Source: Allolobophora icterica (taxonomy: Eukaryota; Annelida; Clitellata; Crassiclitellata; Lumbricidae). From it: a stretch of 64,000 bases of DNA. Positions 5,309 to 22,992 of this stretch are shown one piece after another (position 1 is the stretch's first letter; every line of letters begins with the position of its first letter). Made by a program: the position numbers and the translations under genes. The stretch covers positions 84,706,021 through 84,770,020 of the forward strand of contig OY744605.1 in assembly GCA_963556255.1 (NCBI GenBank), in the 5' to 3' direction. Below the pieces are notes generated by a model that saw only the letters and a program-made list of their open reading frames with translations, was not told the origin of the DNA and ran no database searches.

Positions 5309-5316
5309 ATCATCAT

Positions 5317-6005: not shown

Positions 6006-6007
6006 AA

Positions 6008-6990: not shown

Positions 6991-7214
6991 GAGGCTTTAG
7001 GCCACATCATTCGACGCTTGATATAAAACAGATGCGTATTATTTTCCATCAGTGCGGCGGTCTCCGACAACCGCCCAATTGTGATTTATTGCTTTGTACC
7101 CACTTAGAGGCTTTAGGCTACATCATTCAACGCTTGATATAAAACAGATGCGTATTATTTTCCATCAGTGCAGCGGTCCTTGACAACCGCCTAATTGTGA
7201 TTTATTGCTTTGTA
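6991..7214 (+). repeat. Two-copy 116-bp tandem duplication
   Basis: The segment starting GAGGCTTTAGGCCACATCAT at 6991 is repeated from 7107 with a few substitutions, including GTGCGGCGGTC versus GTGCAGCGGTC. The copies lie in the noncoding arm; no role is evident. Confidence 0.9.
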
Positions 7215-7324
7215 TTATATTACATTAGTAAGCATCCTGTTTCACGTGATGTGGCTTTGTTTAGCGCTGAGAAATCTCGGGGATAAAGGCCTACATTACA
7301 TTTACGTAAAGTTCATCCATCATC

Positions 7325-7380
7325 CTTTCCATCCATCCATCCATCCATCCATCCATCCATCCATCCATCCATCCATCCAC
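7325..7380. repeat. (CATC)n microsatellite
   Basis: A near-perfect CATC array of about 13 units inside the Polinton left arm. Confidence 0.95.
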
Positions 7381-7526
7381 CGCGGTCTGGGTTTTACAAC
7401 AAGCGAACCATAAACACAGGCCAAAATAATAAGGACTTTGACCGATCATCGTCCATATCGACGCCGTGCACTTTCAGGCGATGACTGTAAGCCTTAAATC
7501 CAACAGTGGCCTATTTTTATGTACTG

Positions 7527-7657
7527 TGGCGCTTCATACGGTGAAGGAGTATAAATCGTGTTTAAAGGACTTGTATAATTAAAGACTTGGAAGTCCTTAT
7601 TATTTTGGTCATGGCATCTATGTACGTGGCGCCTCATACGGTGAAGGAGTATAAATC
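7527..7657 (+). promoter_or_regulatory. Duplicated TATA-like promoter segment
   Basis: The sequence CATACGGTGAAGGAGTATAA followed by ATC occurs at about 7534 and again at about 7635, each with GTGGCGC just upstream and GTATAAAT at the 3' end. The second copy lies about 100 bp before the ATG of the Cys-rich gene. A duplicated TATA-type promoter is the simplest reading; this is inference. Confidence 0.45.
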
Positions 7658-7750
7658 AATAACAATAATAATAATAATAATAATTAGCCTTGTTTTGAAT
7701 ATTTTTTCAATTTAAATAAAAGAATATGTTATGGTATACATAAAATCATA

Positions 7751-8026
7751 ATGTTGGGGCAAAACTTCTGCAAGTGGTTAGTTATAGGTAAAACAAATCT
7801 GTGCTGTCGCAGATGTATTGGGGAGTATTGTTTCAAACATTTAGCACGACTGCGAAACGGCTGTGGGACAAGACCATGCGCCAAATGTGGGAGGGGCATC
7901 AAAAACCACTTGGGTGAGTGTATACGCTGCGGTTATTACGTCATAAAATCAAGAGTTCGACGCTGCGGACTAACCCGTGAATTCGAGAAAGAATGGAAAA
8001 GACTAGCGAACATAGTAGTAGAGTAA
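7751..8026 (+). CDS. Small Cys-rich zinc-binding protein
   Basis: The product is 91 aa, starting MLGQNFCKW. It has an internal CCRRCIGEYCFKHLARLR segment and then CAKCG (about residues 43-47) and CIRCG (about 57-61), which look like paired zinc knuckles; several further Cys follow. Small proteins with the pattern YC-x2-HL-x-RLR...PC-x2-CG accompany Polintons in other invertebrates as far as I recall, but their function is unknown. The C-terminus is basic. It reads the same way as the polymerase, 160 bp upstream of it. A DNA- or RNA-binding regulatory role is plausible but not shown. Confidence 0.65.
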   Translation: MLGQNFCKWLVIGKTNLCCRRCIGEYCFKHLARLRNGCGTRPCAKCGRGIKNHLGECIRCGYYVIKSRVRRCGLTREFEKEWKRLANIVVE

Positions 8027-8187
8027 AAAATTATCTATTAAAGAAACGATTCCGTTATTGTATTGAGATAAAATAGATGAGCAAGCGACAATCGAATATC
8101 TAGTAAACAAAATTTCATTTTAAACAAACGATTCTGTTATTATATTAAGAAAAAGTTTGCCATAGTAATATAAAATAATTTATAACT

Positions 8188-11100
8188 ATGGCATTGTCTG
8201 CGAATGAAAAAATTGAACAATTGTTGGGCGAGTTTACTGGCCCCCCAGCTCTTCGAGCTGTTCTAAAAAATATCTTAGACGAACCTATCCCAGATGCAGT
8301 CAAAAGGCGCTTACTACAGCCACTACTTCCAAGGCCAATTCCTCCAGCGCGCAAGCATAGAGGGGCAAAACGTAAATCCCTTCTAGCACAATTCGACCCA
8401 CTCCTAATTAAGAAGGATAGAGGTGGACCACCACCCTTTCTAGTACACAAAGAGCTCGCCAATCAGCTTCTGAGAGACTTCCGTGCAGAAGTACCTCTTA
8501 ACCACAGGCTGGAAAGAGATGCGTTGGCTTTCTTGAGTGCAATGGAGCACAACATTGAGGCGCAACTCAACGAAGAGCTGTTGAAACAAGACGGTCTGAA
8601 ATACTCGCAAGTGTTGACAGTTGAGTTGGAAAAGCTGGCTCCGACCGTTGACATGTTGTACGACGGAAACGCGACCCCGGGTACTATTACCAATACGGCC
8701 TACTTTCGAAGCAAAGCAGTGCCAATTACGAATGCGAGTAAAATCCAAGGGGCTGTACGAAAGGCCAAGGCCGAAGTACTAAAAAGCCTCGAGGACTATA
8801 CCAATGAAGGGTCGGGGTGGAGAGTGAAGCGGGTCGTGGCGCTGGACCTCAGTTTTGCAAGATATAAGCCTTTCCGAGGTAAGAGCTACTTTCCCACACC
8901 AAAGTATATACCCCCTCGTACGGTTATTAATGTAAAGAATAAAGATAACCGATGCTTCGAGTGGGCCATATTAAGTGCTATGTATCCAGTAGGTCATGGA
9001 CAAAATCCAGATCGCCCAACTAAGTATCGGGGCCACCTCCTCGAGCTAAACTTCGACGGTATAGAATTTCCAGTGAAGGTCACAGATATCGGTAAGTTCG
9101 AACGTCAGAACCCTAATATAAGCGTCTCAGTCTTCGGGTGGGATAAAGCTTTGTATCCAATTTATGTCTCAAAGCAGACCAATAGAGACTATAATATCGA
9201 TCTTCTACTGTTAGTCAGTGGTGAGAATTACCACTACGTCTGGATTAAAGACCTTGGCCGAATTCTTAATCAAAATAGCAAAGACAAAAGCAAGAAACAC
9301 CCATGCCGTCGCTGCCTACACATATTCTGTAGACAAGACTTGCTGGATGCTCATATCAAAGATTGCCAGGGTATTAGTAAGAAGCCTCAGCGGATTGAGA
9401 TGCCAAAAGACGATGAAAATATCCTCAAATTCCAGAACCATCGCAAACAGATGCGAGCCCCGTATATCGTTTACGCAGACTTCGAGGCTCTAAACGTACC
9501 AATTGAAGGTGCAGCCATGAATCCCAGCGAGAGCAACACCAGACAGATAGCTGAGCAGAAACCATGCAGCTTCTGCTACATAGTGGTTCGATGCGACGGC
9601 CGCACGAAGAAGCCGGTTCTATACCGGGGAGAGAACGCCGTGCCAGAGTTCCTGGAACGACTACAAGGCGAGCTGGCCTCTATCAAACAAAGGCTGGCCA
9701 CCCCAGCTAAAATGATTATGTCAGCGGCCGATCGCCAATCCTTCTGCGAGGCTGCCGAATGTCACATCTGCGGAGAAGCGCTCGAAGCGGATAGAGTTCG
9801 CGACCACTGCCACATTACCGGTAAGTACCGAGGTGCTGCTCATAACGCCTGCAACCTCAAGCTTCGAATATATCCAGATAAGTGCAAGGTACCAGTGGTC
9901 TTCCACAATCTACGAGGTTACGACAGCCACCTCATAATGCAAGCGATAGGCAGCTGTGAGGCCGCACAGGATGAGGAAACTGATATTAACTGCATCCCAA
10001 ACAATATGGAGAAATACATGACATTCAACATAGGACAACTGCAGTTCATCGATAGTCTCCAGTTTCTAAACAGCTCGTTGGATAAGTTATCAGGAAATCT
10101 GTCGTTAGAGGATTTGAAAGTTACAGCAGCATATATAAAGGAAAGTTTCGTTCACAATGATAGGACAAAACTAGATCTTTTGAGGCGAAAGGGCGTATAT
10201 TGTTACGAGCACATTGACGATTACCACCGCTTCGAAGAAGACCGACTTCCACCCAAAGAAGCGTTCTACAGCAGGCTGTCCCGAGAGAACATCTCTGATG
10301 TGGATTATGAACACGCCCAACGAGTATGGAACGAATTCGACTGTAAAACTCTGGGCGACTATCACGACCTGTATCTCCGCACGGATGTACTTCTACTAGC
10401 CGATGTATTCGAGACCTTCAGAGACACCTCAATGAAGCACTACAGTCTAGATCCAGCAAACTACTTCAGCCTGCCAGGAATGGCCTGGGACGCTTTGCTG
10501 AAAAAGACGAAAATCGAGCTCGAACTTCTCACCGATATAGACATGCACTTATTTGTAGAGAACGGTCTCCGAGGTGGAATTTCGATGGTATCTAAGCGCT
10601 TCGCAAAGGCTAACAATCCGCAATGCCCAGATCACGATACCACGAAGCCAGACAACTGGATCATGTACCTCGATGCTAATAACCTCTATGGCTGGGCGAT
10701 GCAACAGTCATTGCCAGTTGGAGGATTTAGCTGGGAAAGTCCTACTCTCGACGAAGTGTTGGAAACTCCAGACGACGCGCCTGAAGGCTTCCTGCTCGAA
10801 GTTGATCTCGAGTACCCGGAGCACCTCCACGAATCACATAGCGACTATCCCTTAGCACCGGAGACCCTGACAGTCCAAGAGGAGTGGTTGAGTGACTATC
10901 AGAATGTGCTTATGAACGAGTTGGGAGGCAAGTTCACAAAGCATGTGAAGTTAGTACCAAGCCTACGACCTAAGGAGCGGTATGTGGTCCATTATAGAAA
11001 TCTCAAGCTCTACCACTCGTTGGGCCTTCAAGTTTCTAAAATTCATCGTGTCATTAAATTTAGACAGGAGGCATGGATGGCTCCATATATCGAGATGAAT

Positions 11101-11934
11101 ACGAAATTGAGAGCGAAGGCAACGTCAGAATTTGAAAAAGACTTCTTCAAACTGGCTAATAATGCAGTTTTCGGAAAAACCATGGAAAATCTTAGAAAAA
11201 GAATCAGGGTCAACCTGGTCCCGACCTCAAAAGTTGACAAACTTCGTAAACTAATTGCTGACCCGGCCTACATATCACACAAAATCTTCAACGACCAACT
11301 CGCCGCGATTCACAGTTTGAAGAACAAGCTCAAGTTAAACAGACCTGTATATGTCGGCCAGGCTGTCCTCGACCTCAGCAAGCATCTGATGTACGACTTC
11401 TGGTACAACGATGTGAAAAACGAGTACGGAGAAAAAGCCCAGTTGCTATATACAGACACTGACAGCCTGTTATTTCAGGTGGAAACTCCGAACGCCTATA
11501 CCGATATGTGGAATAAAAAACACCAATACGACCTCTCAGAGTTTCCAAGAGACAGCCCCTACTACGACGTCGAGAACAAGAAAGTCGTGGGCAAGTTCAA
11601 AGATGAATGTAACGGAGTTGCCATAGCCCAATTCGTGGGACTGCGCCCGAAGATGTACTCGATCTTAAAATCGGGTGGTTCAGAAATCAGGAAAGCAAAA
11701 GGCGTTCAGAGAGCAGTTGTGAAGAAGGATCTGCACCACGAGCTATACAAGGAGTGCCTGTTCGAACGAGAAGAGATGCGGCACACACAAGTCGTGATTA
11801 GAAGCCACGACCACCAGATCGGAGTGTACGAGCAGAATAAGATCAGCCTCTCTCCATTAGACACAAAAAAGTGGATATCTCCGGACGGGATAACAACGCT
11901 GGCATATGGGCACTACAAAATCAACGACGGTTGA
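8188..11934 (+). CDS. polB: Protein-primed family B DNA polymerase (pPolB)
   Basis: The 1248-aa protein would replicate the element by protein priming. Visible motifs in order: an N-terminal region with CFEWAILSAMYP (about residues 255-266), typical of Polinton polymerases; a C2H2-like finger CRRCLHIFC...H..DC (about 372-392); exonuclease I YADFEAL (about 429-435); an endonuclease VII-like zinc module CHICG...HCHITGKYRGAAHNAC (about 526-558); exonuclease II HNLRGYDSHL (about 572-581); exonuclease III YLRTDVLLLADVF (about 729-741); polymerase motif A YLDANNLYGWAM; motif B NNAVFGKTMEN; and motif C YTDTDS. All catalytic carboxylates are present. An AT-rich TATAAAATAATTTATAACT precedes the ATG. 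Its last 14 bp overlap the end of the convergent integrase gene. Confidence 0.97.
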   Translation: MALSANEKIEQLLGEFTGPPALRAVLKNILDEPIPDAVKRRLLQPLLPRPIPPARKHRGAKRKSLLAQFDPLLIKKDRGGPPPFLVHKELANQLLRDFRAEVPLNHRLERDALAFLSAMEHNIEAQLNEELLKQDGLKYSQVLTVELEKLAPTVDMLYDGNATPGTITNTAYFRSKAVPITNASKIQGAVRKAKAEVLKSLEDYTNEGSGWRVKRVVALDLSFARYKPFRGKSYFPTPKYIPPRTVINVKNKDNRCFEWAILSAMYPVGHGQNPDRPTKYRGHLLELNFDGIEFPVKVTDIGKFERQNPNISVSVFGWDKALYPIYVSKQTNRDYNIDLLLLVSGENYHYVWIKDLGRILNQNSKDKSKKHPCRRCLHIFCRQDLLDAHIKDCQGISKKPQRIEMPKDDENILKFQNHRKQMRAPYIVYADFEALNVPIEGAAMNPSESNTRQIAEQKPCSFCYIVVRCDGRTKKPVLYRGENAVPEFLERLQGELASIKQRLATPAKMIMSAADRQSFCEAAECHICGEALEADRVRDHCHITGKYRGAAHNACNLKLRIYPDKCKVPVVFHNLRGYDSHLIMQAIGSCEAAQDEETDINCIPNNMEKYMTFNIGQLQFIDSLQFLNSSLDKLSGNLSLEDLKVTAAYIKESFVHNDRTKLDLLRRKGVYCYEHIDDYHRFEEDRLPPKEAFYSRLSRENISDVDYEHAQRVWNEFDCKTLGDYHDLYLRTDVLLLADVFETFRDTSMKHYSLDPANYFSLPGMAWDALLKKTKIELELLTDIDMHLFVENGLRGGISMVSKRFAKANNPQCPDHDTTKPDNWIMYLDANNLYGWAMQQSLPVGGFSWESPTLDEVLETPDDAPEGFLLEVDLEYPEHLHESHSDYPLAPETLTVQEEWLSDYQNVLMNELGGKFTKHVKLVPSLRPKERYVVHYRNLKLYHSLGLQVSKIHRVIKFRQEAWMAPYIEMNTKLRAKATSEFEKDFFKLANNAVFGKTMENLRKRIRVNLVPTSKVDKLRKLIADPAYISHKIFNDQLAAIHSLKNKLKLNRPVYVGQAVLDLSKHLMYDFWYNDVKNEYGEKAQLLYTDTDSLLFQVETPNAYTDMWNKKHQYDLSEFPRDSPYYDVENKKVVGKFKDECNGVAIAQFVGLRPKMYSILKSGGSEIRKAKGVQRAVVKKDLHHELYKECLFEREEMRHTQVVIRSHDHQIGVYEQNKISLSPLDTKKWISPDGITTLAYGHYKINDG

Positions 11935-12934
11935 GTATTCTATCGGGGGGTAGCTCAGTGCCCATAGGCACCAGAAGCAGCTCCTCACGTACAAAACCGC
12001 GGCCAGGCCCATCAACTAGATGGTATAAAGCCGGTTTACCAGCCTGCCGAACAACATCCAAAATAGCGTGGATGGTGAGCGACCAGTTAGGATCGGTGGC
12101 ACGTTTGCTTCCACCTTCGAGCTCGCCGGGAGCGTACAAATAGCGGACGAGAACGTCGTGTCCGAGAATAGGCTCATCCATTCCCCACAAACGAGTTTTC
12201 ATTTGTGAATGAGAGGGCTTCTGTGTCACTTTAGCAGCTTTCATCGCTTCAACCGGCTTCATGTCGAGCAAGCGCGTCGGCTCATCGTTTAGTGTAGCTA
12301 CAACTTCGGGCAATCGTCGAACCCATTCCACTGACCGTTCTGATGACCCCCTTGCATCCAGGAGCAATTCCTGAGCGTATTGAGCACCGAAGAGTCGCTC
12401 AGCTAGAGTACGGTTAAAGCGTTCAACGATGCCCTGTTGGCGATGATTTCCGGCCTGTCCGCGTCTTACAAGAACGTCGTGCTTCGTCAGCAATGGTGTA
12501 AAATCACCCATAAATTCGCGTCCAGGATCGACCTGAAAGAGTCGAGGCCAAGTTAATGGGCCCCTCTTATAGATCCGGCTTAAAGCGGCGGCGACTTCGG
12601 TCGCACTTTTGTTGATCAACGGTTCAGCTTCTTTGTATCGTGAGGCAACATCAACAACAGTGAGAGCGTATTTATAAGTCTTTCGACCTACTTTATCGTG
12701 AGGTAAAAACAAGAGATCGGCTTGGTGTACGGCGTTTGGTCGATTTTCCTCAAACTTTGGACGCGGTATGCGGCGTGGAACGGGTAGATAAATCTGCCAC
12801 ACAGCTTGTTTCTTCAACCAATCACGAGCCTCGGCCTCGGAAACTTTGGCGGCTGAGGCTAGTTTCTTCACCGCGGCCTTACCTCGCCAGTAACCTCTAG
12901 GGCTGTAATAGACGGCTGAAAGGTGCTTAGACAT
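11921..12934 (-). CDS. Retroviral-type (rve) integrase
   Basis: The DDE integrase would cut and join the element's ends at the target. From the Met at 12934 it is 337 aa. The catalytic triad is in QADLLFL (Asp about 73), QVDPGREF (Asp about 136) and QGIVERFNRT (Glu about 171), the two last residues 35 positions apart. The N-terminal KAAVKKLASAAKVSEAEARDWL segment is helical, as in Polinton integrases that use this region to bind DNA. Upstream in-frame residues reach 13018 but form a hydrophobic stretch, so MSKHLSAV is the preferred start. TATATATA lies at 12946-12953 on this strand. The 3' end overlaps the polymerase stop convergently. Confidence 0.95.
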   Translation of the reverse strand: MSKHLSAVYYSPRGYWRGKAAVKKLASAAKVSEAEARDWLKKQAVWQIYLPVPRRIPRPKFEENRPNAVHQADLLFLPHDKVGRKTYKYALTVVDVASRYKEAEPLINKSATEVAAALSRIYKRGPLTWPRLFQVDPGREFMGDFTPLLTKHDVLVRRGQAGNHRQQGIVERFNRTLAERLFGAQYAQELLLDARGSSERSVEWVRRLPEVVATLNDEPTRLLDMKPVEAMKAAKVTQKPSHSQMKTRLWGMDEPILGHDVLVRYLYAPGELEGGSKRATDPNWSLTIHAILDVVRQAGKPALYHLVDGPGRGFVREELLLVPMGTELPPDRILNRR

Positions 12935-12980
12935 TTCAGTTAAACTATATATAACAAACAGGTAAACACATACACAAATG

Positions 12981-13036
12981 AACGCAAATGAAAAATTCAT
13001 TCGCGTTTGCGTTTTCATAAATGAAACTCATTTATG
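12981..13036. promoter_or_regulatory. Paired palindromes between integrase and PLA2 genes
   Basis: One dyad has arms AACGCAAA (12981-12988) and TTTGCGTT (13006-13013) around ATGAAAAATTCAT. The next, at 13016-13036, has arms CATAAATGA and TCATTTATG with a 3-nt centre and covers the stop of the PLA2 gene. It may be a transcription end for the upstream gene or a promoter site for the integrase. A related 21-bp dyad is at 16676-16696. Confidence 0.4.
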
Positions 13037-13618
13037 GCCCTTCGTTCTGACACCCATCCCCAGCCTCGACTTCGCCGACATAATGGCCGATACCAGCCGC
13101 GCATCCTTCTTCTCATAATCCGGAGTTTCATCGGTGAGTGCGATCTTCGACGCGGCTGCAGCGAGGATGTCATCTGCGTGGTTACGCCCCGGAGTATCTT
13201 TATGAACTGCGTAAGCCACATCGTGGTGGAGGCACGCACGGTCGAGCTGATTAACACCGTGATAGCGCTGTGACAGCCGTTTGTCGAGTTTTGTGAATGG
13301 CCCACAGTAAGAGTACTTTCCCGTGTTCTGAAAAGAACCTCCCGGATTATCTTCCGAAGACATACCGGATGGAAGACTCATATGCATCTCAGGCAGTGGA
13401 AGAGCGTTGAGGGCCCTATTCAGTAGAGAACCTCCATAAGTCTCACGAGACTTATGCTTCCGCACTTTAGAAGGCAAAATTTGGCTCTTCTTTGCACCGC
13501 AGACGGCACAGGTTCCCTTCTTGGCTGGCCGACCGTTTCGTAACTCGACGATTGTTTCATTTGAAGTCTCAGTATGTTTCTTACATCGTAGGCAATACAT
13601 TGTGTTCGTTGAATACAA
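13028..13618 (-). CDS. Zinc-ribbon plus phospholipase A2-like protein
   Basis: The 196-aa protein joins two modules. Residues 9-40 hold CLRC and CAVC pairs, a small zinc ribbon of the YC-x2-C kind seen in phage and Polinton proteins. Residues 103-139 carry YCGPFTKLD, then LDRACLHHDVAYAVH, with the catalytic His-Asp of the parvovirus-type PLA2 fold and a glycine-containing calcium-loop-like segment. In parvoviruses this domain breaches the endosomal membrane; a like role at entry is inference. It starts only 20 bp from the divergent ATPase gene, so the two probably share a promoter. MYCLRC at 13600 is an alternative start. Confidence 0.8.
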   Translation of the reverse strand: MYSTNTMYCLRCKKHTETSNETIVELRNGRPAKKGTCAVCGAKKSQILPSKVRKHKSRETYGGSLLNRALNALPLPEMHMSLPSGMSSEDNPGGSFQNTGKYSYCGPFTKLDKRLSQRYHGVNQLDRACLHHDVAYAVHKDTPGRNHADDILAAAASKIALTDETPDYEKKDARLVSAIMSAKSRLGMGVRTKGHK

Positions 13619-13638
13619 TCATAACTCGTTGTCTCTAT

Positions 13639-14325
13639 ATGGAAATAACAAATTTCGATCTCGAAGCCGACGATGTGAAAAAACACCACCATTGGTTGTT
13701 GCCATCAAGCATACGATGCATAATCTGTGGGCCTAGCGGATGTGGAAAAACAAACCTACTACTCAACCTCCTTCTGAAGAAGGGGTACCTACGTTTTGAC
13801 CGGCTCTATCTATACTCAAAGTCTCTGGGACAGGAAAAATATCAGTTCCTCCGGGACTGGGTTACAGAGTTGGAAAAAGTTGCCGGGAAGGAAGTGGCTT
13901 CCTTTCACTCTTGCTCAGATGAAATAGTTCCAGTTGAATCATTAAATAAGAATGCCAGAAGCCTTCTAGTGTTCGATGACGTCATGCTTGAAAAACAGTC
14001 GCCCATCGAAAGGTATTTCACTATGGGTCGACACGGTGGCGCGGACTGCTTCTACTTAACTCAAAATTACTTCCGCATTCCCAAGCAAGCGATCCGTGAC
14101 AATGCTAATCTTATCGTCCTCTTCAACCAAGACAGCAAAAATTTGCGAGCCATTCACGATACGTTCGTGGGCGGCGACATGTCTTTCGATGAATTCCGTA
14201 CGTTCTTCAGCGAGTGCGCTGCCCAACCATATGGATTCGCAGTCATAGATTTGACGTCCAAAGTGTACGATGGAAAATATCGTTGCGGGTTCGATCGCTT
14301 CTATAAGCCCAAGGCAAGTATTTAA
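13639..14325 (+). CDS. FtsK/A32-like genome-packaging ATPase
   Basis: The 228-aa protein is an HerA/FtsK-superfamily ATPase that would drive DNA into capsids. Walker A is GPSGCGKT (about residues 31-38), Walker B is LLVFDDVM (about 109-116), and a sensor-like FYLTQNYF follows at about 139. The frame is open upstream to 13492, but that extension overlaps the divergent PLA2 gene, and MEITNFDLEADD at 13639 gives the usual Polinton N-terminus. Stop at 14323-14325. Confidence 0.93.
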   Translation: MEITNFDLEADDVKKHHHWLLPSSIRCIICGPSGCGKTNLLLNLLLKKGYLRFDRLYLYSKSLGQEKYQFLRDWVTELEKVAGKEVASFHSCSDEIVPVESLNKNARSLLVFDDVMLEKQSPIERYFTMGRHGGADCFYLTQNYFRIPKQAIRDNANLIVLFNQDSKNLRAIHDTFVGGDMSFDEFRTFFSECAAQPYGFAVIDLTSKVYDGKYRCGFDRFYKPKASI

Positions 14326-14497
14326 AGACATGATATAGGCAACATATAGTCGACATATGGACAAAAGTTATCGTTACTGATTGATTGAATGTGTATAAAA
14401 AAATACCTTAGCGTGACAGTTGTGACGATATTATCAGTCACATTGTAAAACTTGTCACACTTAAGAACTTACAAGATATAGTCGACATACAACCACG
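14326..14497. promoter_or_regulatory. Intergenic control region before the structural block
   Basis: A 172-bp AT-rich gap holds the mid-element dyad and flanking TGTCACAC half-sites. It also has a direct repeat: ATAGTCGACATATGGACAAAAG near 14346 resembles ATAGTCGACATAC...TGGACAAAAG at about 14478-14508. Confidence 0.5.
14422..14441. promoter_or_regulatory. Dyad element copy 2 (mid-element)
   Basis: GTGACGATATTATCAGTCAC lies in the only sizeable gap of the late-gene half, between the ATPase stop and the ATG at 14498. Further GTGACA and TGTCACAC half-sites flank it. It may drive the block of structural genes that starts here. Confidence 0.6.
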
Positions 14498-15598
14498 ATG
14501 TGGACAAAAGTTTCGTCTAAACAGGAGCGAGACGCCTTGACTCAGGATTATTTAGCTCGCAGAAATCGATTGAGACAGCGTTTCGTGGATGAGAAGCTCG
14601 GTGAAGCCAACCTTCAGTACGATGCGGCAAAGCTTTTTAAACCAATAGCCACAGCCACGGCTGAATCCCAGGTGGCTACGTCTAAGGAGCTGCAGAAAGT
14701 TACCAGCGCTTTACAGGATTTGCCGGCGCAGATTTCAGAGTCTGCTAATTTTAACCCGATAGCAGCTTTGTTCGGTGAAACCGCAGGAACAGCAGCTCCT
14801 GCGCTTCCAGCGCTTCCAGCATCCCGAATCCCCCCCGCACTGTTAGTTGATCCAAACAAATATCTCAACGTCGAGGCAATCATAAGGCACGGTTTCAGAC
14901 CTCCGAGCGAGCTCGATTTAGCCGACAAGGCAGGTGCTGAAAAGATAATCGGTGAGGTCAATCACTATAATCGCCACACCCTGGGCAAAGAGAAAAAGCT
15001 GGCTAAAAAGCAAAAAGACGAAGAAAAGGTAGATGCGGTGACTGCAGATATCGAAGCCCTAAGGGAATATAAAAAGCGAATCGATACACTGATAGAGGGC
15101 CACACCCTCATCAAAAAGGGAAAGGGTTTCAGTGTTCCAACCGTTCCTCTGAAATTACAAGGTAACGCCTTGGGTGAGCTCTCCGTTGACCCCGTCGCCC
15201 TGTCTGCTGGTAGACTGAGAGTGTTTAAAGGTGGCAACCTCGTTCTCGAATCTCCGGCCGATGAGTCGTTGTTCAACCTACTAACAAAACGCTTCGTTAA
15301 GACTAAGCAATACTCGCCTCAGGCAATTGAAACTTTTAAAAAGCTCGTACAGATGTCTGGTCTGCCCATTCATGGCCGGAAAAGTAAAAAGTTCCAGCTG
15401 ATTCGAGGCGGCGCGGTGCAATTTTACAACGATCCAAACGCCCTGGTAGAGAGGTTGCAGCTTTTGGTGGCCTCTAGGGCCGCGGGAAACACAGGTCTCG
15501 GCAACGAAATCTCCGCCATTCTTGATGAGTTACTGCGTTCCGGTGCGATCTCCAAAGAGCTGGCACTCGAATTGAATAGAAACATGCTCATAAAATAG
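14498..15598 (+). CDS. Uncharacterised Polinton structural-region protein
   Basis: The 366-aa product starts MWTKVSSKQER. The N-terminal half is charged and helical with Ala/Pro-rich linkers (GTAAPALPALPASRIPPA, about residues 95-112) and a Lys/Glu coiled coil at about 155-195. The C-terminal part, with GELSVDPVALSAGRLRVFKG, FNLLTKRF and GLPIHGRKSKKFQLIRG, has the layout of a domain found in Polinton proteins of cnidarians and insects (I believe DUF8207-like, from memory). Function is unknown. Its place before the penton-like gene suggests a virion or assembly role. Confidence 0.7.
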   Translation: MWTKVSSKQERDALTQDYLARRNRLRQRFVDEKLGEANLQYDAAKLFKPIATATAESQVATSKELQKVTSALQDLPAQISESANFNPIAALFGETAGTAAPALPALPASRIPPALLVDPNKYLNVEAIIRHGFRPPSELDLADKAGAEKIIGEVNHYNRHTLGKEKKLAKKQKDEEKVDAVTADIEALREYKKRIDTLIEGHTLIKKGKGFSVPTVPLKLQGNALGELSVDPVALSAGRLRVFKGGNLVLESPADESLFNLLTKRFVKTKQYSPQAIETFKKLVQMSGLPIHGRKSKKFQLIRGGAVQFYNDPNALVERLQLLVASRAAGNTGLGNEISAILDELLRSGAISKELALELNRNMLIK

Positions 15599-15616
15599 AA
15601 ATAGAAAACAAAATTC

Positions 15617-16420
15617 ATGGCTCAGATGGAACGCTCGGAGAAACTACTCGAAGAAATTCGAGAACTTTTGCAGCCTAAGGAGAATTTTAGTATAGTTGTT
15701 TCCTCAGATACTACAGGGTGGACCACGGCTTTCTCACCACCGCTGTACCTGGATCCAAAAAGACGCTTTGAGCTTGCTTTGGTCAATCTTGAAACTTATA
15801 ACTCGATCCCGAACATAGACAGTTCAAATAACAAGTTCGTCTACAGCCCCACCAATGGACAGACCTGGAAGACGATCATTTTACCCGACGGAAGCTACGA
15901 GATCGCACAGATTAATTATGAAATCAGCCGGCAGTTAGAAATGCAAAATCCGCCGCCGCCAGGTGTTGCTCAACTCAGCTTTGATTCTCCTATTACTATA
16001 GGAGCTAACGCATCTACCCTTCGCGCCTTCGTAAAGATAACGAAGGTCCGTTTTAAGGTAGATATGGCCGCATCTACCATCAGGCAAACGCTCGGTTTTA
16101 ACCCTCAGACGCTTAGTCTTGGTTATAAAGAGGGAGAAAATCCAGTCGATATTCTCCGGGTGGACACAATTCTGGTAAATTGTGATATTATCTCTGGATC
16201 GTATCGAAATGGTAGCCAGCTGCCAGTAATCTACAGTTTTTTCCCGGATGTGTCGCCCGGCTATAAGGTAATCGAGTCTCCGAAAAATCTAGTGTACCTA
16301 CCAGTAGCACCGGCTGGCAACGTACAGGGCATTCGTGTGTGGCTGACCGACCAGAATGGTGAACAATTAAACCTCCGCGGTGAGACAGTAACTATAAGGT
16401 TTCACATCCGCAGTGCGTAG
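15617..16420 (+). CDS. Penton-like minor capsid protein (single jelly roll)
   Basis: The 267-aa protein is probably the vertex (penton) protein. After a short helical start (about residues 1-20) it is beta-rich: ALVNLETYNSIPNI (about 54-67), WKTIILPDGSYEI, IYSFFPDVSPGYK and a C-terminal IRVWLTDQNGEQLNLRGETV. These blocks match my memory of the minor capsid (penton) protein of Polintons and adintoviruses. It sits 18 bp after the previous gene, and its end overlaps the first possible ATG of the next, consistent with one transcription unit. A structure search should show a single eight-stranded jelly roll. Confidence 0.7.
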   Translation: MAQMERSEKLLEEIRELLQPKENFSIVVSSDTTGWTTAFSPPLYLDPKRRFELALVNLETYNSIPNIDSSNNKFVYSPTNGQTWKTIILPDGSYEIAQINYEISRQLEMQNPPPPGVAQLSFDSPITIGANASTLRAFVKITKVRFKVDMAASTIRQTLGFNPQTLSLGYKEGENPVDILRVDTILVNCDIISGSYRNGSQLPVIYSFFPDVSPGYKVIESPKNLVYLPVAPAGNVQGIRVWLTDQNGEQLNLRGETVTIRFHIRSA

Positions 16421-16442
16421 ATTTTCACACTTAAATATTCTC

Positions 16443-16904
16443 ATGTTTGTTCTTGGAATTAAAAAGCGGCGGCGTCGTGTCGTGGGTGGTGGACTTTTCG
16501 ACTGGATACCCAAAATCGCGGGCTTCCTTGGCCGTGCAGGCTCCTTCATTTCGGCGAATAGAGGCACAATCACAAACGTTGCCAAGGCGGTTGGTAATGT
16601 CGCGAAAGCCGGCGCCACAACAGCATCTGCCGTCAGGCAAATTGTTGATGCCGTGAAAGCGAGACGCGCTGCGGCCGTAAATGAAGCTCATTTACGAAAT
16701 GAAAATTCATCTGCCGCGCCCGTTGTTCCCGCACCTTTGGAGAAGGCGCTCAGCGACAAGAGCATCGAATACTTGAAACAACTGGCTGTGAGTCCGCCAC
16801 CCGTTGTTCCGACAATGGCTGACATAAACAGCCGCATTGCTGGATCCGGTTTCAAGACTATAAAGCCGAGTCGTTGTGGTAGGGGTCTGTTTCTTGCAAA
16901 ATGA
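16443..16904 (+). CDS. pX/pVI-like basic core protein
   Basis: The product is 153 aa from MFVLGIKKRRRR; the frame opens 10 residues earlier at 16413, overlapping the penton stop. It has a basic cluster KKRRRRVVGGG, an amphipathic segment FDWIPKIAGFLGRAGSFI, an Ala-rich helix, a Pro-rich linker and a C-terminal GSGFKTIKPSRCGRGLF. Small basic proteins with amphipathic segments (adenovirus pX and pVI) bind DNA or disrupt membranes and are cut by the viral protease; VVGGG resembles such a site loosely. Its position between the capsid genes fits. Confidence 0.6.
   Translation: MFVLGIKKRRRRVVGGGLFDWIPKIAGFLGRAGSFISANRGTITNVAKAVGNVAKAGATTASAVRQIVDAVKARRAAAVNEAHLRNENSSAAPVVPAPLEKALSDKSIEYLKQLAVSPPPVVPTMADINSRIAGSGFKTIKPSRCGRGLFLAK
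16676..16696. promoter_or_regulatory. 21-bp dyad inside the pX-like gene
   Basis: Perfect 9-bp arms CGTAAATGA and TCATTTACG flank AGC. The core TAAATGAAGCTCATTTA differs by one base from that at 13018-13034. A second dyad, ATGAAAATTCAT, follows 4 bp later. Confidence 0.3.
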
Positions 16905-17016
16905 AAAAAATTTCCGACTAATTCACAAAACGGAAAAAAAATGTTTAACCCACCACATATGAAATTAATTTGCAACATGATTAATAATTGAAGCTTGAAC
17001 TTTTTTAACTATAATA

Positions 17017-18312
17017 ATGGCGGCATTTGACGTGCCGAGTGAAATGTTGGACATCGCTTCGGCGGTACCCGATGACAATAGCATAGAATCGTTTGAATAC
17101 CGTGAGTATGAATCACAAAACCCTGCGGCTATTAACAACGGCCAGGCCATACAGATAGACATCCAGAATCAAGACATTTTCACGCAACCTTCCAAGAGTT
17201 ACCTTCTTGTGGAGGGCAGGATTACATCAACTGGCGCGGGTTACAACGCAGACTCGTTGGTGTCATTCATCAACAATGCTATCCCGTACATGTTTTCTCA
17301 AATTCGATACCTGGCTAACAATACCGAGATAGAGAATGTCATGTCACCTGGGCAAGCCACGACGATGAAAGGCATGCTGGTATACGGCGATGATTTTTCC
17401 AAAGGCGAAGGTTTAAACATGTGTTGGCAGAAGGACACGACCGCGGCGGCGGCGGCTGCGAATATCGGCTTCGAGGCCCGTCGACTGATGATCATTGGAA
17501 AACCCGTCCCTATTGGAACGTTTTCATTCATCGTTCCCTTAAGACATCTATTCGGTTTTTGCGATGATTATCACAAGGTCGTATACGGGATCAAACACTC
17601 CTTACTGCTGAGCCGGCAGGGGGATGCAGACGCGATCTTCAAGGAAGCCGCAGCGGCCAATGGCCAGATCGCGCTGACTAAACTCTCCTGGTTCATGCCG
17701 CATATAATACCCGCTCTGGAGTATAAAAGCATGCTTATGAAGCAGATTGAAGCCAAGGTTAAGGTACCTGTAGCATTCCGCGCCATGCAATGCGACAACA
17801 TTGCGGTGCCACGAGCGACGACTTTTTCCTGGCGTTTGAGCGTTAAGTCGGGCACGGAAAAGCCACGCTGGATTCTTGTTGCTTTTCAGACTGGAAAGAA
17901 TGCACATCAAGGCCAGAATCCGGCACTGTTTGACCATGTGCAGGTTCGCAACATTTTCGCTATGCTCAACAGCGATCGCTACCCGGTGGTTGACATGAAT
18001 CTCGACTTCACCAAGAGGACAACCTCTCGCGCTTACAAGGCCCTACGTGACTTCAAGGAAGAATATTGCGGTATAGACGCGCGTGAATCGTCATGCCAAC
18101 CGACACCAATCGAATTTGTAGATTTGTTTCCGATCTTCGTCCTGGACGTGCGCAGGCAATCCGAACGACTTAAAACCTCTGTACAGGACATACAAATCAA
18201 GGTGGACTTTAACGAAGGGGTACCAAATAATACGACAGCATATGCCGTCCTGATCAGCGACCGACTCCTGAATTTTGAATCGGATGGCAGCAAATTCAAC
18301 GTCGTCTACTAG
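17017..18312 (+). CDS. Double jelly-roll major capsid protein
   Basis: The 431-aa protein would form the hexon-like capsomers. Recognisable blocks are YESQNPAAINNGQAI (about residues 29-43), SKSYLLVEGRI (about 59-69), NNAIPYMFSQIRYLANNTEI, the RHLFGFCDDYHKVVYG segment (about 186-201), and FAMLNSDRYPVVDMNLDF with a C-terminal FVDLFPIFVLDV. These fit the double-jelly-roll MCP family of Polintons and adintoviruses. An alanine run (TTAAAAAANIG) lies at about residues 142-152. ACTATAATA stands directly before the ATG. The length is normal for the family and no damage is seen. Confidence 0.9.
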   Translation: MAAFDVPSEMLDIASAVPDDNSIESFEYREYESQNPAAINNGQAIQIDIQNQDIFTQPSKSYLLVEGRITSTGAGYNADSLVSFINNAIPYMFSQIRYLANNTEIENVMSPGQATTMKGMLVYGDDFSKGEGLNMCWQKDTTAAAAAANIGFEARRLMIIGKPVPIGTFSFIVPLRHLFGFCDDYHKVVYGIKHSLLLSRQGDADAIFKEAAAANGQIALTKLSWFMPHIIPALEYKSMLMKQIEAKVKVPVAFRAMQCDNIAVPRATTFSWRLSVKSGTEKPRWILVAFQTGKNAHQGQNPALFDHVQVRNIFAMLNSDRYPVVDMNLDFTKRTTSRAYKALRDFKEEYCGIDARESSCQPTPIEFVDLFPIFVLDVRRQSERLKTSVQDIQIKVDFNEGVPNNTTAYAVLISDRLLNFESDGSKFNVVY

Positions 18313-18369
18313 AAATCGGTTTTTCACATTTAGATACAAGGCCCTCTTTTAGATATATTTTTTCCAAAA

Positions 18370-18942
18370 ATGAAAACTGAATACGTTGCGTTCGGCCTTT
18401 CACTGACCGAAGGGCAAAAGCAAACATTAGCTAGAGCTGCGCGCGCCGGCACTGGTGCCACGATCCGGCTCACTCATGGCCAGCTTCGCGGAGAAGATAA
18501 GCTCGCGCTTACGAAAGTTCAAGCCGCCCGAATCGTGAGGAAGATTTCGGAAGGCGTTGGCATGGAGCTGAGATTCACCAAAACACAATTGAAAAAGATG
18601 ACAAAATCGGGCGGATTTCTTCCACTACTGGCTCTCCTCCCGCTGATTTTTAGTGGGTTAGGCGCGGTGGGTGCCGCGGCTGGAGGGGCCGCCGAGGTGG
18701 CAAAGGCCGTGCACAACAAACAGGCCAGCGATGCAGAGGCTCTGCGCAAGAAACAGGCCAGCGATGCGGCCCAAGCCGAGAAAAAACGGATCGACGACGC
18801 GGCTTTAGCAGAGGCCGCGCGTCACAATCGCGAACTCGAAGCTCAGGTCCGCGGGACCGGTTTATATCTCGGGCGCCAGACTTATGGTGGTTGCTGTTCA
18901 ATGTGTAAAGGATCCGGCCTGTACATCGGACAAAAAAACTAA
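18370..18942 (+). CDS. pVI/pX-like precursor, upstream frame of the frameshift pair
   Basis: The 190-aa protein has two short repeats, IRLTHGQLRGEDKLALTK (about residues 32-49) and LRFTKTQLKKMTKSGG (about 67-82). A hydrophobic segment GFLPLLALLPLIFSGLGAVG (about 82-101) and an Ala/Lys/Glu helix follow, then GTGLYLG and GSGLYIG near the end. The plan recurs beside adenain-type proteases in Polintons and recalls adenovirus pVI/pX. The last sense codons CAA AAA AAC before TAA contain the frameshift heptamer A_AAA_AAC (18933-18939), so a fraction of ribosomes would continue into the protease. Confidence 0.75.
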   Translation: MKTEYVAFGLSLTEGQKQTLARAARAGTGATIRLTHGQLRGEDKLALTKVQAARIVRKISEGVGMELRFTKTQLKKMTKSGGFLPLLALLPLIFSGLGAVGAAAGGAAEVAKAVHNKQASDAEALRKKQASDAAQAEKKRIDDAALAEAARHNRELEAQVRGTGLYLGRQTYGGCCSMCKGSGLYIGQKN

Positions 18943-18983
18943 AACCGCTGAGCAACTTTGACATAGAGAAAGTTGCCAGAGCG
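18933..18983 (+). promoter_or_regulatory. Candidate -1 programmed frameshift signal
   Basis: The slippery heptamer A_AAA_AAC (18933-18939) is in the correct register for the upstream gene, whose stop is the very next codon (18940-18942). After a 6-nt spacer a stem CGCT/AGCG (18946-18949 with 18980-18983) encloses an 8-bp perfect stem GCAACTTT/AAAGTTGC (18952-18959 with 18969-18976). Slippage by -1 leads exactly into the protease frame. Confidence 0.75.
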
Positions 18984-19313
18984 CTGCCGCATTTCCGCGG
19001 TGTTTTCATGCGAGATGGTCTGCCCGCCGTGGCTCGTGAGAAGGAGTGTGGAGTTGTTAATCTGGATTCCGGTTCTGGTGATGGTACTCACTGGGTCGCC
19101 TATTGGATAGATGGACCAAAAGCCGTCTATTTTGACAGTTATGGGCTGGATCCACCTCTCGAAATTTCTCGATATTTAAAAAATCCTATAAGAACTCAAA
19201 CGTTCCAGCTACAGGGGCCCGATGATGTGGTATGTGGTCATCTCTGTCTGCTCGTGCTAAGAGAGCTCGCTGCCGGAAAGAATTTTGAAGACATCGTGCT
19301 TGACCTATGTTAG
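18939..19313 (+). CDS. Adenain-type cysteine protease (frameshift product)
   Basis: The maturation protease would cut capsid and core precursors. The triad region is visible: GTHWVAYW (His), YFDSYG (Asp/Asn position) and CGHLCL (nucleophile Cys), with the oxyanion Gln as QLQGPDD. The first ATG of this frame is at 19008, but the conserved N-terminal part (PLSNFDIEK, then the ALPHFRGVF segment) lies upstream of it, in frame, with no ATG between it and the slippery site. That favours translation as a fusion with the 18370 gene by -1 frameshifting at 18933-18939. The frame adds 124 residues. Splicing is the main alternative. Confidence 0.85.
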   Translation, partial: LKPLSNFDIEKVARALPHFRGVFMRDGLPAVAREKECGVVNLDSGSGDGTHWVAYWIDGPKAVYFDSYGLDPPLEISRYLKNPIRTQTFQLQGPDDVVCGHLCLLVLRELAAGKNFEDIVLDLC

Positions 19314-19340
19314 ACTTCCATCACCTTTTTGTATATAAAA

Positions 19341-21173
19341 ATGCCGGTTGATAAATTTGGAAGAGACGGTGGAGGTGGGGTGGGAGGAGGGCAGATAAGC
19401 GCCGCTGGGCTCATCCACAAGGCTGGTGATACCATGCTGGGAATTCTTTCGGCTGGAGGTTTTCGGCTGACAAATGTGGGAACGCCGACGATGGAAACGG
19501 ACGCCGCGACAAAGGCTTATGCAGACATCGTAGATCAGGACAACCTGCAACTCACCGGTGGAACGATGTCTGGCGTTCTAAAAATGGGCGGTCATAAATT
19601 GACTGGTTTGCCCACGGACACTCCGGGATCTGATAGCGAAGACGAGGGTTGGGATGAATTGGTGGGGGAGTCCGACGTTGGGAGTTGGAAACAAATAACG
19701 GAGTACGCGAAAGAGCGGGCGCACCAAGCTGAGTTGTATGCAGACGGCTTAAGCTCCGAGGTAACTGGTCTCGTTAAACGTTACGCAGACGATAAGGACG
19801 CTCTGCTGGACACTGCCGTCAGGCTGTATGCGGACCAGAAGGCATCCGCAGCCGAAAGGCATGCAGACCAGAAGCTTATCGATGCCAAACAGTACACGGA
19901 CGAGAAGAACGAGGTGCTGAGAGATTCCGTTAGGCAGTATGCAGACGAAAAGGACGTTATTGTAAAAAGTTACGTCAACGAGCAAGATGTTATCGTCAAG
20001 AACGCGTGTGTGCTCAAATCTGGAAGTGTAATGACTGGAAGTTTAGTCATGGGTGGCCACCGAGTAACTGGACTTCCAACAGAGATTCCAGGATCTGATA
20101 GCGACGCAGCGAGTTGGAAACAAGTGTCAACAGCGGTCGCCGGCGCTCTATTGAGCCTCGATAGAGTTCCCACGGAGTCGTTGCACGTGGTTAACAAACA
20201 ATATGTTGATGTTCAACATATTGCTGCTAGACAGTACGCGGTGGATCAGGACACCGCGATTAATTCGGCCGTGAGGTTGTATACAGATCAAAAGACCGCC
20301 GCCGCAAGGGGGTACGCAGACCAGAAAGCCGAAGCTGCAAAAACTTACGCCGAAGAACAAGACGCTATGGTCAGGAGCGCTTGCGTGCTTAAAGTTGGCG
20401 ACGCAATGACTGGAAATTTAGCTATGGGCGGTAAGAGGGTGACTGGGCTTTACACGGGGGCCTCAACAACTAATACCGACGCGGCGAGTATCGGGCAGGT
20501 GACGAGAATCGTAACCGGCAAAATGACAAAATTAAATAAAATACCGACGGAGCCTTTGAACGTGGCCAATAAACAATATGTCGACAATCAGGCTGTTGTG
20601 GTTAAAAGATATACAGACAGTAAAGATATAGCTATAAGACAGTACGTGAATAACCTCAGGATTCTCAACTGTATAGGTCACATTCCACCCCTATGCAAAG
20701 ACTCTTCCGAAACAGGTTTTGTTGCCCTAGCCAGCGCATTTCTTCCGACTTACCCACCTCACTTAGCATTCAACTCGGGTGTTGAAGGTGAGTGGAAGGC
20801 CACGCTCGTCGGGGGTGCAGGGACTTGGTTAGAGATTTGCTGCCCAGTGGCTGTACAAATATGGAAGGTCAGCTTGGCTGGGGGAAGTAGTACTAGTTCA
20901 CCGCGTATCACGTCCTGGGAGATCCATGGAGTTACACATCCAATTGTCAACAATGTAGAGGTGATGATATCATCGTTTTCAAACATCCTCCACTCCTCCA
21001 GCGTTACTTTGACTGCTTCTGCACAAGAGTTCACCATCAACACAAGCGCCGCCAACGCCGGAACTGCATACAAAAGATTCAGACTGAAGGTCCTTGCCAC
21101 CAGCCCATCACAAGCTACTGTTGGAATATCCCACTTTCAGATTTACACATATTTAAAAATTGGAGATATGTAA
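19341..21173 (+). CDS. Fibre-like attachment protein
   Basis: The product is 610 aa from MPVDKFGR; an in-frame Met at 19329 overlaps a TATATAAAA box. After a Gly-rich start there are four copies of a phage-tail-fibre-like repeat: GDTMLGILSAGGFRLTNVGT, GGTMSGVLKMGGHKLTGLPT, GSVMTGSLVMGGHRVTGLPT and GDAMTGNLAMGGKRVTGLYT. Between them are long helices built of YADQK/YADEK/YVNEQ repeats, likely trimeric coiled coils. The last about 150 residues are beta-rich (EGEWKATLVGGAGTWLEI to HFQIYTY) and resemble a galactose-binding or F5/8-C-like fold. A trimeric spike binding a host glycan is the natural inference. Confidence 0.7.
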   Translation: MPVDKFGRDGGGGVGGGQISAAGLIHKAGDTMLGILSAGGFRLTNVGTPTMETDAATKAYADIVDQDNLQLTGGTMSGVLKMGGHKLTGLPTDTPGSDSEDEGWDELVGESDVGSWKQITEYAKERAHQAELYADGLSSEVTGLVKRYADDKDALLDTAVRLYADQKASAAERHADQKLIDAKQYTDEKNEVLRDSVRQYADEKDVIVKSYVNEQDVIVKNACVLKSGSVMTGSLVMGGHRVTGLPTEIPGSDSDAASWKQVSTAVAGALLSLDRVPTESLHVVNKQYVDVQHIAARQYAVDQDTAINSAVRLYTDQKTAAARGYADQKAEAAKTYAEEQDAMVRSACVLKVGDAMTGNLAMGGKRVTGLYTGASTTNTDAASIGQVTRIVTGKMTKLNKIPTEPLNVANKQYVDNQAVVVKRYTDSKDIAIRQYVNNLRILNCIGHIPPLCKDSSETGFVALASAFLPTYPPHLAFNSGVEGEWKATLVGGAGTWLEICCPVAVQIWKVSLAGGSSTSSPRITSWEIHGVTHPIVNNVEVMISSFSNILHSSSVTLTASAQEFTINTSAANAGTAYKRFRLKVLATSPSQATVGISHFQIYTYLKIGDM

Positions 21174-21182
21174 GATTTAATA

Positions 21183-21728
21183 ATGGCCGACTCACACTAC
21201 AAGATTCGAGGTTATCTCCGGCAAAAAGGAGAAACGAATATGCATAAATACAACCTCGATGATTTGGTTGGACTAACCAACTGGGGATATACTATCCCTA
21301 AGCCCACCGCAGATATGTTAGACGCGGTTCCCCAAATCCACATCGATTTCGTATCGGACGATTACCATAGCCGCGATATTTACACAGCGACCAAAACTGT
21401 GACTCAAAGTTCGTGGCAAACGCTTCCATTGACCGCGGCACGTTATCCATGTATTACGTTGCAAACTAATAATGAGGTTATTTCATTAGACCGCGGATTC
21501 TGGAGGCTTACAATGTTTGGTGTTAGCACCGGTGATGCGTCAGTTCGCGTTATTACAGCCGCGGGTAGCATCGATCGTACAGTTGACATTCAAAGTGGAC
21601 AATTTGATGCATCTAGGGCAATATTCATTCCAGGACAAACGAGTTTTCGAATTGAAGGAAAAAAGAGAGGCGTTTTAAGTACTTCAACTATTGAGTTAAA
21701 CGTAACGTTACTGATAGAGCAACTATAA
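21183..21728 (+). CDS. Small beta-rich hypothetical protein
   Basis: The 181-aa product starts MADSHYKIRGYLRQKG, ten bases after the fibre stop and six before the next ATG, so it is tightly packed in the late block. Residues about 70-181 are predicted by eye to be mostly beta strands (FWRLTMFGVSTGDASVRVIT, AIFIPGQTSFRIEG, IELNVTLLIEQL), suggesting a compact jelly-roll or TNF/C1q-like domain. It may be a second spike head or a cement protein; the family is not recognised. Confidence 0.6.
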   Translation: MADSHYKIRGYLRQKGETNMHKYNLDDLVGLTNWGYTIPKPTADMLDAVPQIHIDFVSDDYHSRDIYTATKTVTQSSWQTLPLTAARYPCITLQTNNEVISLDRGFWRLTMFGVSTGDASVRVITAAGSIDRTVDIQSGQFDASRAIFIPGQTSFRIEGKKRGVLSTSTIELNVTLLIEQL

Positions 21729-21734
21729 AAAAGT

Positions 21735-22340
21735 ATGTCTTTGTACCCACCGCTGATGGAGTCAACAATTTCGTCAGACACGACGTCGCAAACATTTCGC
21801 TTGCAGAAGATCGGCGAAATAGAAGCATTCCTGAGGTCTGAGGCGATAAGTCGGGGACAACTGTGTAAAAAGTATAAGAGGGTTGTAGATGTGGCTAATG
21901 GGGCGTCGGCCGGCCTTGCTATAGTTAGTCTTGGAACTGGGGTGGGTGGGGCAGCTATGTTAGCCACTGGTATTGGTTTTATTCCTGGTATTGTTCTGGA
22001 GAGTTTGGCCATAGCGACGAGTTTTCTGGATATCATTGGAAATGTTGTCAGTAGAAGTTTCGTTGCTAAAGCTTCAAAACACGACGAAATTTGTATTTTG
22101 GCGGAAAGTAAGCTAAACACAGTTCATGACCATATTTCTCGGGCTTTGGAAGACACAGCTATTAGCGATGAAGAATACAAGCTTATTCTAGGAGAGGAGG
22201 AGAAATATAGAACGATGAAACGTGATATACAAAGCAAGAATGGAAAAAAAGAGTTGCCGAGTCAAAGCAAAGACCAGATGGTGGCAGAACTAATCAAGAA
22301 ACTAACCGGCGCCGGGTCTTGCCCGCGAACCTCAACATAA
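21735..22340 (+). CDS. Hydrophobic helical Polinton-associated protein
   Basis: The 201-aa product starts MSLYPPLMES, directly after ACTATAAAAAAGT. The layout is an N-terminal helix with KKYKRVVDVANGASAGLA, a glycine-rich hydrophobic region of about 60 residues (GTGVGGAAMLATGIGFIPGI, then ESLAIATSFLDIIGNVVS) and a helical C-terminal half with KHDEICILAESKLNTV and ISDEEYKLILGEEEKY. I recall the same layout in proteins next to capsid genes of invertebrate Polintons, function unknown. The middle could insert in a membrane, suggesting a holin- or envelope-like role, unproven. Confidence 0.65.
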   Translation: MSLYPPLMESTISSDTTSQTFRLQKIGEIEAFLRSEAISRGQLCKKYKRVVDVANGASAGLAIVSLGTGVGGAAMLATGIGFIPGIVLESLAIATSFLDIIGNVVSRSFVAKASKHDEICILAESKLNTVHDHISRALEDTAISDEEYKLILGEEEKYRTMKRDIQSKNGKKELPSQSKDQMVAELIKKLTGAGSCPRTST

Positions 22341-22709
22341 AAGTTTTCATCCTTGGTGGTTGGAGTAGTGAGTCCGTTATTCCTAGCGCACCACCGCCGT
22401 ACGATTAGTGGGCTATAATTTTTACTGGCACACTCCAATGGTTTGGGCCGGCCTCGTGGGAGGGTCTCGGCCGGCAGCAAACGACACTCTTGCGGTTTGA
22501 TGTGTTAGGGCAATCCACGATCCTTATTTTTTGGCTTTGGCCGAATTGGCTTAGAGACGGTCTTTATATCAAAGGACTTTCTATTGAGCCTGATTTCAAA
22601 GACTCACTTAACACCACGATTCAAAAGACTTCTAAGCCATGATAGCCATAGGCGCTGCTTGGAAACCAATCTTTGATAAGGGTCTGTGGGCCCTGTCCCG
22701 AAGCCGCTC
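22341..22709. other. Polinton right-arm noncoding stretch
   Basis: No gene is seen. A GGCCGGCC-containing segment (about 22440-22480) lies next to the degenerate part of the right terminal repeat. Confidence 0.5.
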
Positions 22710-22992
22710 AGTGTGACACTGTGACACTTGTGACCATATTATCAGTCACAACTATGAAAATGGTCACACAAAGCGTTCGTGGGCCCTCAGGAGGCCCTGG
22801 AAGTCGGCCTGCTATAATTGTCCGTGGGTTTCAGGACCCCCTGGAAGCCTAGATGGTATAGATCGGCATCCTCTTAATTCGGTGAGATAATGGAGTGGTG
22901 GGGACCAGAAAAACTGGGTGTTGCAGGCCAGTCAAAACTGGTTTTAAAACGTAATTACGATGATGTCCCCAACCCCGTGTTGCCCCCCTACT
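22710..22992 (-). repeat. Polinton right terminal inverted repeat
   Basis: This is the reverse complement of the left end, near identical over 22811-22992 and degenerate further in. It ends ...CCCCCCTACT and is followed directly by cataa, which also precedes the left end. The GTGAC/GTCAC dyad is at 22730-22749. Confidence 0.93.
22730..22749. promoter_or_regulatory. Dyad element copy 3 (right arm)
   Basis: GTGACCATATTATCAGTCAC, preceded by tandem GTGACACT repeats at about 22713-22727. It differs from the mid-element copy at one position. Confidence 0.6.

Follow-up and report, generated by a model that had tools for sequence, protein, structure and literature searches.

Probable programmed -1 ribosomal frameshifting from a protein-X-like gene into an adenain-type protease in a Polinton of Allolobophora icterica

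We analyzed a 64,000-nucleotide stretch of the Allolobophora icterica genome (contig OY744605.1, positions 84,706,021 to 84,770,020), hereafter the window, which carries a Polinton/Maverick element whose adenain-type cysteine protease lies in the -1 frame of the upstream gene, a protein-X-like open reading frame (ORF). Programmed -1 ribosomal frameshifting at a slippery heptamer ending the upstream gene best explains how the protease is expressed (probability of about 0.85); the slip itself and its efficiency we infer from the arrangement of the junction and from relatives. Tandem -1 slippage on A_AAA_AAC would jointly account for the frame, the heptamer, the position of the stop codon and the lack of a start codon, whereas reinitiation, splicing, transcript slippage and sequence error each account for only part of them.

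The junction between the X-like gene and the protease

The capsid gene, the X-like ORF (18370..18942, 190 amino acids) and the protease frame follow one another on the + strand. The X-like ORF terminates with the codons CAA AAA AAC TAA, which places the heptamer A_AAA_AAC (18933..18939) in the 0-frame register with the stop codon TAA (18940..18942) immediately 3' of it. The -1 frame is open from 18909 to 19313, the preceding stop lying at 18906-18908, and the two frames overlap by 34 nt with the heptamer inside the overlap. This is the sole overlap among plus-strand ORFs from 13639 onward; the other same-strand neighbors are separated by gaps. A -1 slip at the heptamer leads into the protease frame, which continues for 124 codons from CTA at 18939 to its stop (18939..19313). 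An earlier interpretation made from the letters of the window, hereafter the sequence-only reading, had described this ending, its register and the passage into the protease frame, and each of these can be read directly in the DNA.

The placement of the heptamer is well beyond chance. The ORFs of the element (4564 codons) contain 13 in-frame heptamers of the form X_XXA_AAZ or X_XXT_TTZ (Z not G). A_AAA_AAC occurs in frame once among them, at 18933, and A_AAA_AAU twice, in PolB and in the protease. When the codons of the X-like ORF were shuffled 20,000 times, A_AAA_AAY fell right before the stop in 0.015% of the shuffles, and any slippery heptamer fell within the last 12 codons in 2.3%.

The AlphaFold model of the 124 residues starting at CTA 18939 reached a predicted local distance difference test (pLDDT) of 95.4 and a predicted template modeling score (pTM) of 0.89. 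Its top Foldseek matches were adenovirus proteases (E 8.9e-8, TMq 0.73), and a profile match to 1avp (4.8e-6) covered part 44-123 of the 136 profile positions. Among 105 aligned rows, His51 and Asp66 are invariant, and Gln92 and Cys99 nearly so. The predicted structure is therefore of the adenain type, with the catalytic His/acid/Gln/Cys set. The first in-frame ATG (19008..19010) corresponds to residue 24, past a helix at residues 6-13 and at the end of a strand at 19-24, which bears out the earlier claim that no ATG precedes the conserved N-terminal part. In the model, a start at this ATG would cost the helix and most of the strand of a high-confidence fold, so the protease is predicted to need its N-terminal part. 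Gene callers that depend on a start codon truncate this protease, and the protease rows of 13 relatives begin only at MRD, the site of ATG 19008.

A candidate stimulatory stem (18946..18983, + strand) follows the heptamer after a 6-nt spacer and consists of an outer helix of 4 bp (18946-18949/18980-18983) and a perfect inner helix of 8 bp (18952-18959/18969-18976). Its minimum free energy is -13.6 kcal/mol, with a z-score of -3.5 in a 41-nt segment fitted to the stem and of -2.3, -2.8, -1.2 and -1.3 in segments of 51, 61, 81 and 101 nt, respectively. Equal or greater stability was found in 3.2% of the 1733 segments of 41 nt within 13639-22300. Therefore, the stem is moderately unusual and by itself amounts to moderate evidence; it may stimulate slippage in the element of the window.

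The X-like product resembles a core or minor protein and bears two G(T/S)GLY(L/I)G motifs close to its C terminus. Its match to Adeno_PX is weak (E=0.0072, 16.6 bits against a Pfam cut-off of 25), and a precomputed PF05829 annotation is present on some of its relatives.

The junction in relatives

Database searches returned 133 homologues of the X-like protein and 143 of the protease, the best 120 of which were taken in each case. A profile search with the X-like family gave 319 rows, and 51 of the best 120 were new. The 171 X-like rows thus listed comprise 65 close rows, classed by rank, and 106 distant ones; since the rows are related, the counts below are not independent. The protein ends in K followed by N or K and zero to two further residues in 46 of the 65 close rows (P0254 among them by accident) and in 44 of the 52 close rows that have a GLYL-type motif near the end, compared to 3 of the 106 distant rows. 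A stricter ending, [KQRS]KN plus zero or one residue, was found in 38/65 close rows. Outside this ending, a K with N or K after it accounts for 1.7% of positions in the close rows. Furthermore, although 1 to 15 residues separate the GLYL-type motif from KN, the end itself is retained, which is not as expected from constraint on the protein end alone. In P0151, the second GLYL motif is lost and KKN-stop is kept.

Two proteins that overlap in two frames constrain the underlying DNA. In several protease rows, the N-terminal residues upstream of the core match the X-like tail read at -1 and match nothing in the protease. We tried 13 pairs of rows from the same contig. In three of them (P0001/P0121, P0009/P0124 and P0012/P0151), a single DNA can encode both proteins only if the protease is at -1, over 13, 12 and 13 codons, respectively, and the inferred DNA end is forced to AAAAAAYTA in all three. 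Most of the others are uninformative because the protease row starts too late. Six show no fit, at least five of them with a protease row starting at or after the junction. For P0017/P0140, P0018/P0129 and P0032/P0241, the fit is limited to the stop codon and carries little weight. The remaining pair, P0013/P0248, shows a 20-codon fit in the third frame. The pairing of P0002 with P0122 is a guess, as neither has a contig assignment.

We then compared 53 extended protease rows with 45 close X-like tails, the partners being mostly on other contigs. At -1, 11 of the 53 rows overlap a close tail by 8-16 codons. Shuffled controls, 20 per row, reached at most 6 codons, and the third frame gave 4-6 codons for the same 11 rows. 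P0016 and P0027 are compatible with a 0 frame one codon longer (KNR-stop and KNG-stop), with the heptamer kept and C as its last base. The inferred A run comprises 8 residues in P0001, P0007 and P0012 and 6 in P0009/P0124, P0002, P0003, P0005, P0006, P0011, P0016 and P0027, compared to 7 in the window. Hence, as far as protein pairs reveal the DNA, the constant part among relatives appears to be the heptamer in register and not the length of the A run. Six rows were not counted as support: P0004 and P0040 (6 codons each), P0008 (3), P0034 (4), P0013 (4) and P0014 (5 at -1); for P0013, A_AAA_AAG and a KK-stop end would be compatible only with A at one ambiguous base. The other 36 of the 53 rows, mostly distant or near-duplicate, overlap by 2-5 codons. 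This anchored overlap test replaced a looser test of N-terminus patterns, in which 8/17 rows were positive and 0-62 of 500 shuffles passed in the 14 rows controlled.

Together with the KN ending retained by the upstream protein, these overlaps point to evolutionary conservation of the heptamer and of the frame offset, with exceptions, in agreement with the conservation check called for by the sequence-only reading. Given the relatives, chance, assembly error and decay appear unlikely.

Viral contigs were scanned with the protease sequence and alignment, with the X-like alignment, with the capsid protein and PolB, and with a junction pattern, and yielded no true relative; two candidates, L001 and L002, were rejected because they look like chance matches in phage-like contigs. 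Phage records gave no match. A scan of genome contigs yielded one distant relative, L003, in which the protease stands alone, starts at an ATG of its own and follows an AT-rich gap. L003 is a 6.1-kb piece of a distant Polinton in a bacterial metagenome-assembled genome (Balneolales), where it is probably misbinned.

In a tree of 54 chosen rows, rooted at the midpoint and with some long branches, the 12 rows labeled as carrying the heptamer (including P0013) and the window fall inside one group of 39 rows with weak support (82/74). Rows with an ATG at the junction are nested among the heptamer rows, and the topology suggests that the heptamer is ancestral.

Exceptions and rival explanations

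Several observations weigh against programmed frameshifting or narrow its reach. The DNA of the relatives was deduced from protein pairs, and the last base of the heptamer is resolved only as C or T in nine of the 11 supporting rows. With any synonymous codons allowed, all 8 inner pairs of the stem are possible in none of 14 relatives, the maximum being 7 in 10, 6 in three and 4 in one; the sequence-only reading was thus right about the coordinates, the 4 + 8 bp and the 6-nt spacer of the stem in the window, but its exact 8-bp helix is not kept in these relatives. The X-like tails of P0122, P0141, P0142 and P0248 lie in the third frame; in the expected frame, the contig of P0248 would read CKGSGLYLGPQKK and then a stop if one ambiguous base is A. 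The third frame gave more than 6 codons in three of the 53 rows (P0014 with P0142, 22 codons; P0055 and P0090 with P0141, 8 codons), all three with partner tails that are themselves third-frame. P0136 continues into the protease frame but ends there. Six protease rows (P0020, P0021, P0023, P0029, P0033 and P0035) have an ATG at the junction and start with MPLSNFD, and an ATGA overlap would fit P0017/P0140, over one codon only. Offset frames without the heptamer, which the sequence-only reading had named as evidence against a frameshift, are approached by P0017/P0140, P0014/P0142, P0122 and P0141, and the heptamer rule is therefore limited to part of the family. Finally, the region immediately upstream has an AT content of 0.64 for the protease core and of 0.40 for ATG 19008, compared to 0.60-0.92 for the ten other plus-strand ORFs (at least 0.72 in eight). 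These values argue weakly against a promoter of the protease's own, and at 0.64 the protease is not clearly distinct from the others.

The junction ATGs and the possible ATGA overlap of P0017/P0140 are what coupled termination-reinitiation would predict, with ribosomes restarting after TAA 18940 at a nearby codon of the protease frame, a non-AUG codon in the window (CUG 18948) and AUG in relatives. The Leu codon concerned is CTG both in the window and in the inferred DNA of P0013. However, the window has no AUG near the stop, and the 13 rows that start at MRD are typical of gene callers that find no better upstream start, which is suggestive without being proof. Reinitiation also leaves the heptamer unexplained, even where it is kept although the preceding motif is lost. 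We consider this explanation improbable.

A quite improbable alternative is slippage of RNA polymerase on the A run, by which some mRNAs would gain one A and encode a true fusion. One extra A does make the two frames of the window continuous, the runs of 7 A in the window and of 8 inferred in P0001, P0007 and P0012 offer a substrate, and P0262 is a one-ORF, in-frame X-protease fusion across the same joint, although it is a single row without the usual start of the X-like protein. Conversely, the inferred run is shorter in P0009/P0124 (6 A), as it is in the seven further rows named above, and it is the heptamer, not the run length, that is constant.

Removal of a short intron, or alternative splicing, could also join the frames. 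The reading frame would stay open after four possible GT-AG joins of 29 nt or more (donors 18600-18940, acceptors to 18965), among them a candidate intron of 50 nt (18903-18952). Excision of that intron would delete the heptamer and the conserved G.GLYLG tail, which relatives maintain as 0-frame protein. Nor would splicing lead one to expect a heptamer, and we regard this explanation as very improbable. An assembly error or a decayed copy, in which the true or ancestral sequence had one more A and a continuous ORF, is hardly credible despite the homopolymer, the in-frame P0262 and the third-frame P0122, P0141 and P0142, because the other named ORFs of the element are open, frames offset by -1 are found again in relatives from other contigs, and an in-frame fusion was found in 1 of the 171 listed X-like rows.

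Under programmed -1 frameshifting, most ribosomes on the X-like gene would terminate at TAA 18940. A minority paused at A_AAA_AAC would let both tRNAs slip back one base, from AAA AAC to AAA AAA, and would then read CUA at 18939 and go on into the protease. The minority product would be a 314-residue X-protease fusion (190 + 124), whose core-protein moiety would carry the protease into the particle before the protease is cut free, presumably by itself. The fusion could serve dosage, packaging or activation in cis. More tentatively, and in our view with less than even odds, a Polinton clade may control its maturation protease through a -1 frameshift of the Gag-Pro type that ends the core gene and is ancestral to the clade, some lineages having later switched to a junction AUG or a fused ORF. 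In such a clade, the fused core protein would tether the protease to DNA and provide in cis an activating peptide that stands in for the free pVI peptide of adenoviruses.

The element and its place among known systems

The whole element (4504..22992, + strand) spans 18.5 kb and is bounded by terminal inverted repeats of 222 nt (4504-4725 and 22771-22992; 94% complementary) with the termini AGTAGG...CCTACT. CATAA flanks both ends (4499-4503 and 22993-22997), suggesting that 5 bp of the target were duplicated, as would fit an intact insertion; the norm for Polintons is 6 bp. Pfam matches include DNA_pol_B_2 (2e-21), rve (4.1e-10), Pox_A32 (2.1e-8) and a DJR-like capsid domain (9.2e-55), as well as a phospholipase-like protein. 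With its PolB, rve integrase, packaging ATPase, double-jelly-roll capsid protein, adenain-type protease and inverted repeats, the element belongs to the Polinton/Maverick (adintovirus-like) group. The ORFs of PolB (+) and of the integrase (-) overlap tail to tail by 14 nt (11921-11934). The phospholipase-A2-like protein (13028-13600, -) has a DUF5679 domain at its N terminus. Downstream of the protease, a 610-amino-acid ORF (19341-21173) consists of repeated MTG.L.MGG..VTGLPT-like units with a fiber-like look and gave no Pfam match at E 0.01.

In retroviruses, -1 frameshifting sets the ratio of structural protein to protease. The sequence-only reading had likened the present layout to gag-pro, and the heptamer, register, frames and stem it cited were all found. 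As in gag-pro or gag-pol, an X_XXY_YYZ heptamer lies near the end of a structural gene, a stem follows, and the protease in the -1 frame would be made as a minority fusion. In contrast to gag-pro, the present junction lies in a DNA element with a B-family polymerase, the protease is an adenain-type cysteine protease, the upstream gene encodes an X-like core protein, and the heptamer directly precedes the stop.

Adenovirus adenain is homologous to this protease. It is translated from late L3 mRNA, a region that pre-pVI and hexon have in common with it, and its activators are DNA and the C-terminal peptide of pVI; the portion of that account available to us describes no frameshift fusion (PMC8537868). 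In the distant Polinton L003, the protease is likewise homologous yet free-standing. A literature search, mostly at the level of titles and abstracts, returned no report of a -1 frameshift for an X-like/protease gene pair, which may nonetheless be mentioned elsewhere, and the accessible part of PMC5009743 mentions no Polinton, Maverick, adenovirus or DNA virus. According to the abstract of PMC8097293, no particles of such elements have been seen so far, and a testable step of particle maturation would therefore be useful.

The closest parallel comes from adintoviruses, for which a 2024 preprint proposed -1 frameshifts in Penton and potential Hexon-Adenain ("Hexain") fusions from KnotInFrame predictions (PMC11071296). 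In both cases, the element belongs to the Polinton/adintovirus group and a -1 shift is predicted to link adenain to a structural gene. Unlike the Hexain and Penton candidates as presented there, the gene upstream is X-like here, and conservation of the heptamer was tested across relatives. If true, this junction would represent a conserved case of convergence with retroviruses in an adenovirus-related element of double-stranded DNA.
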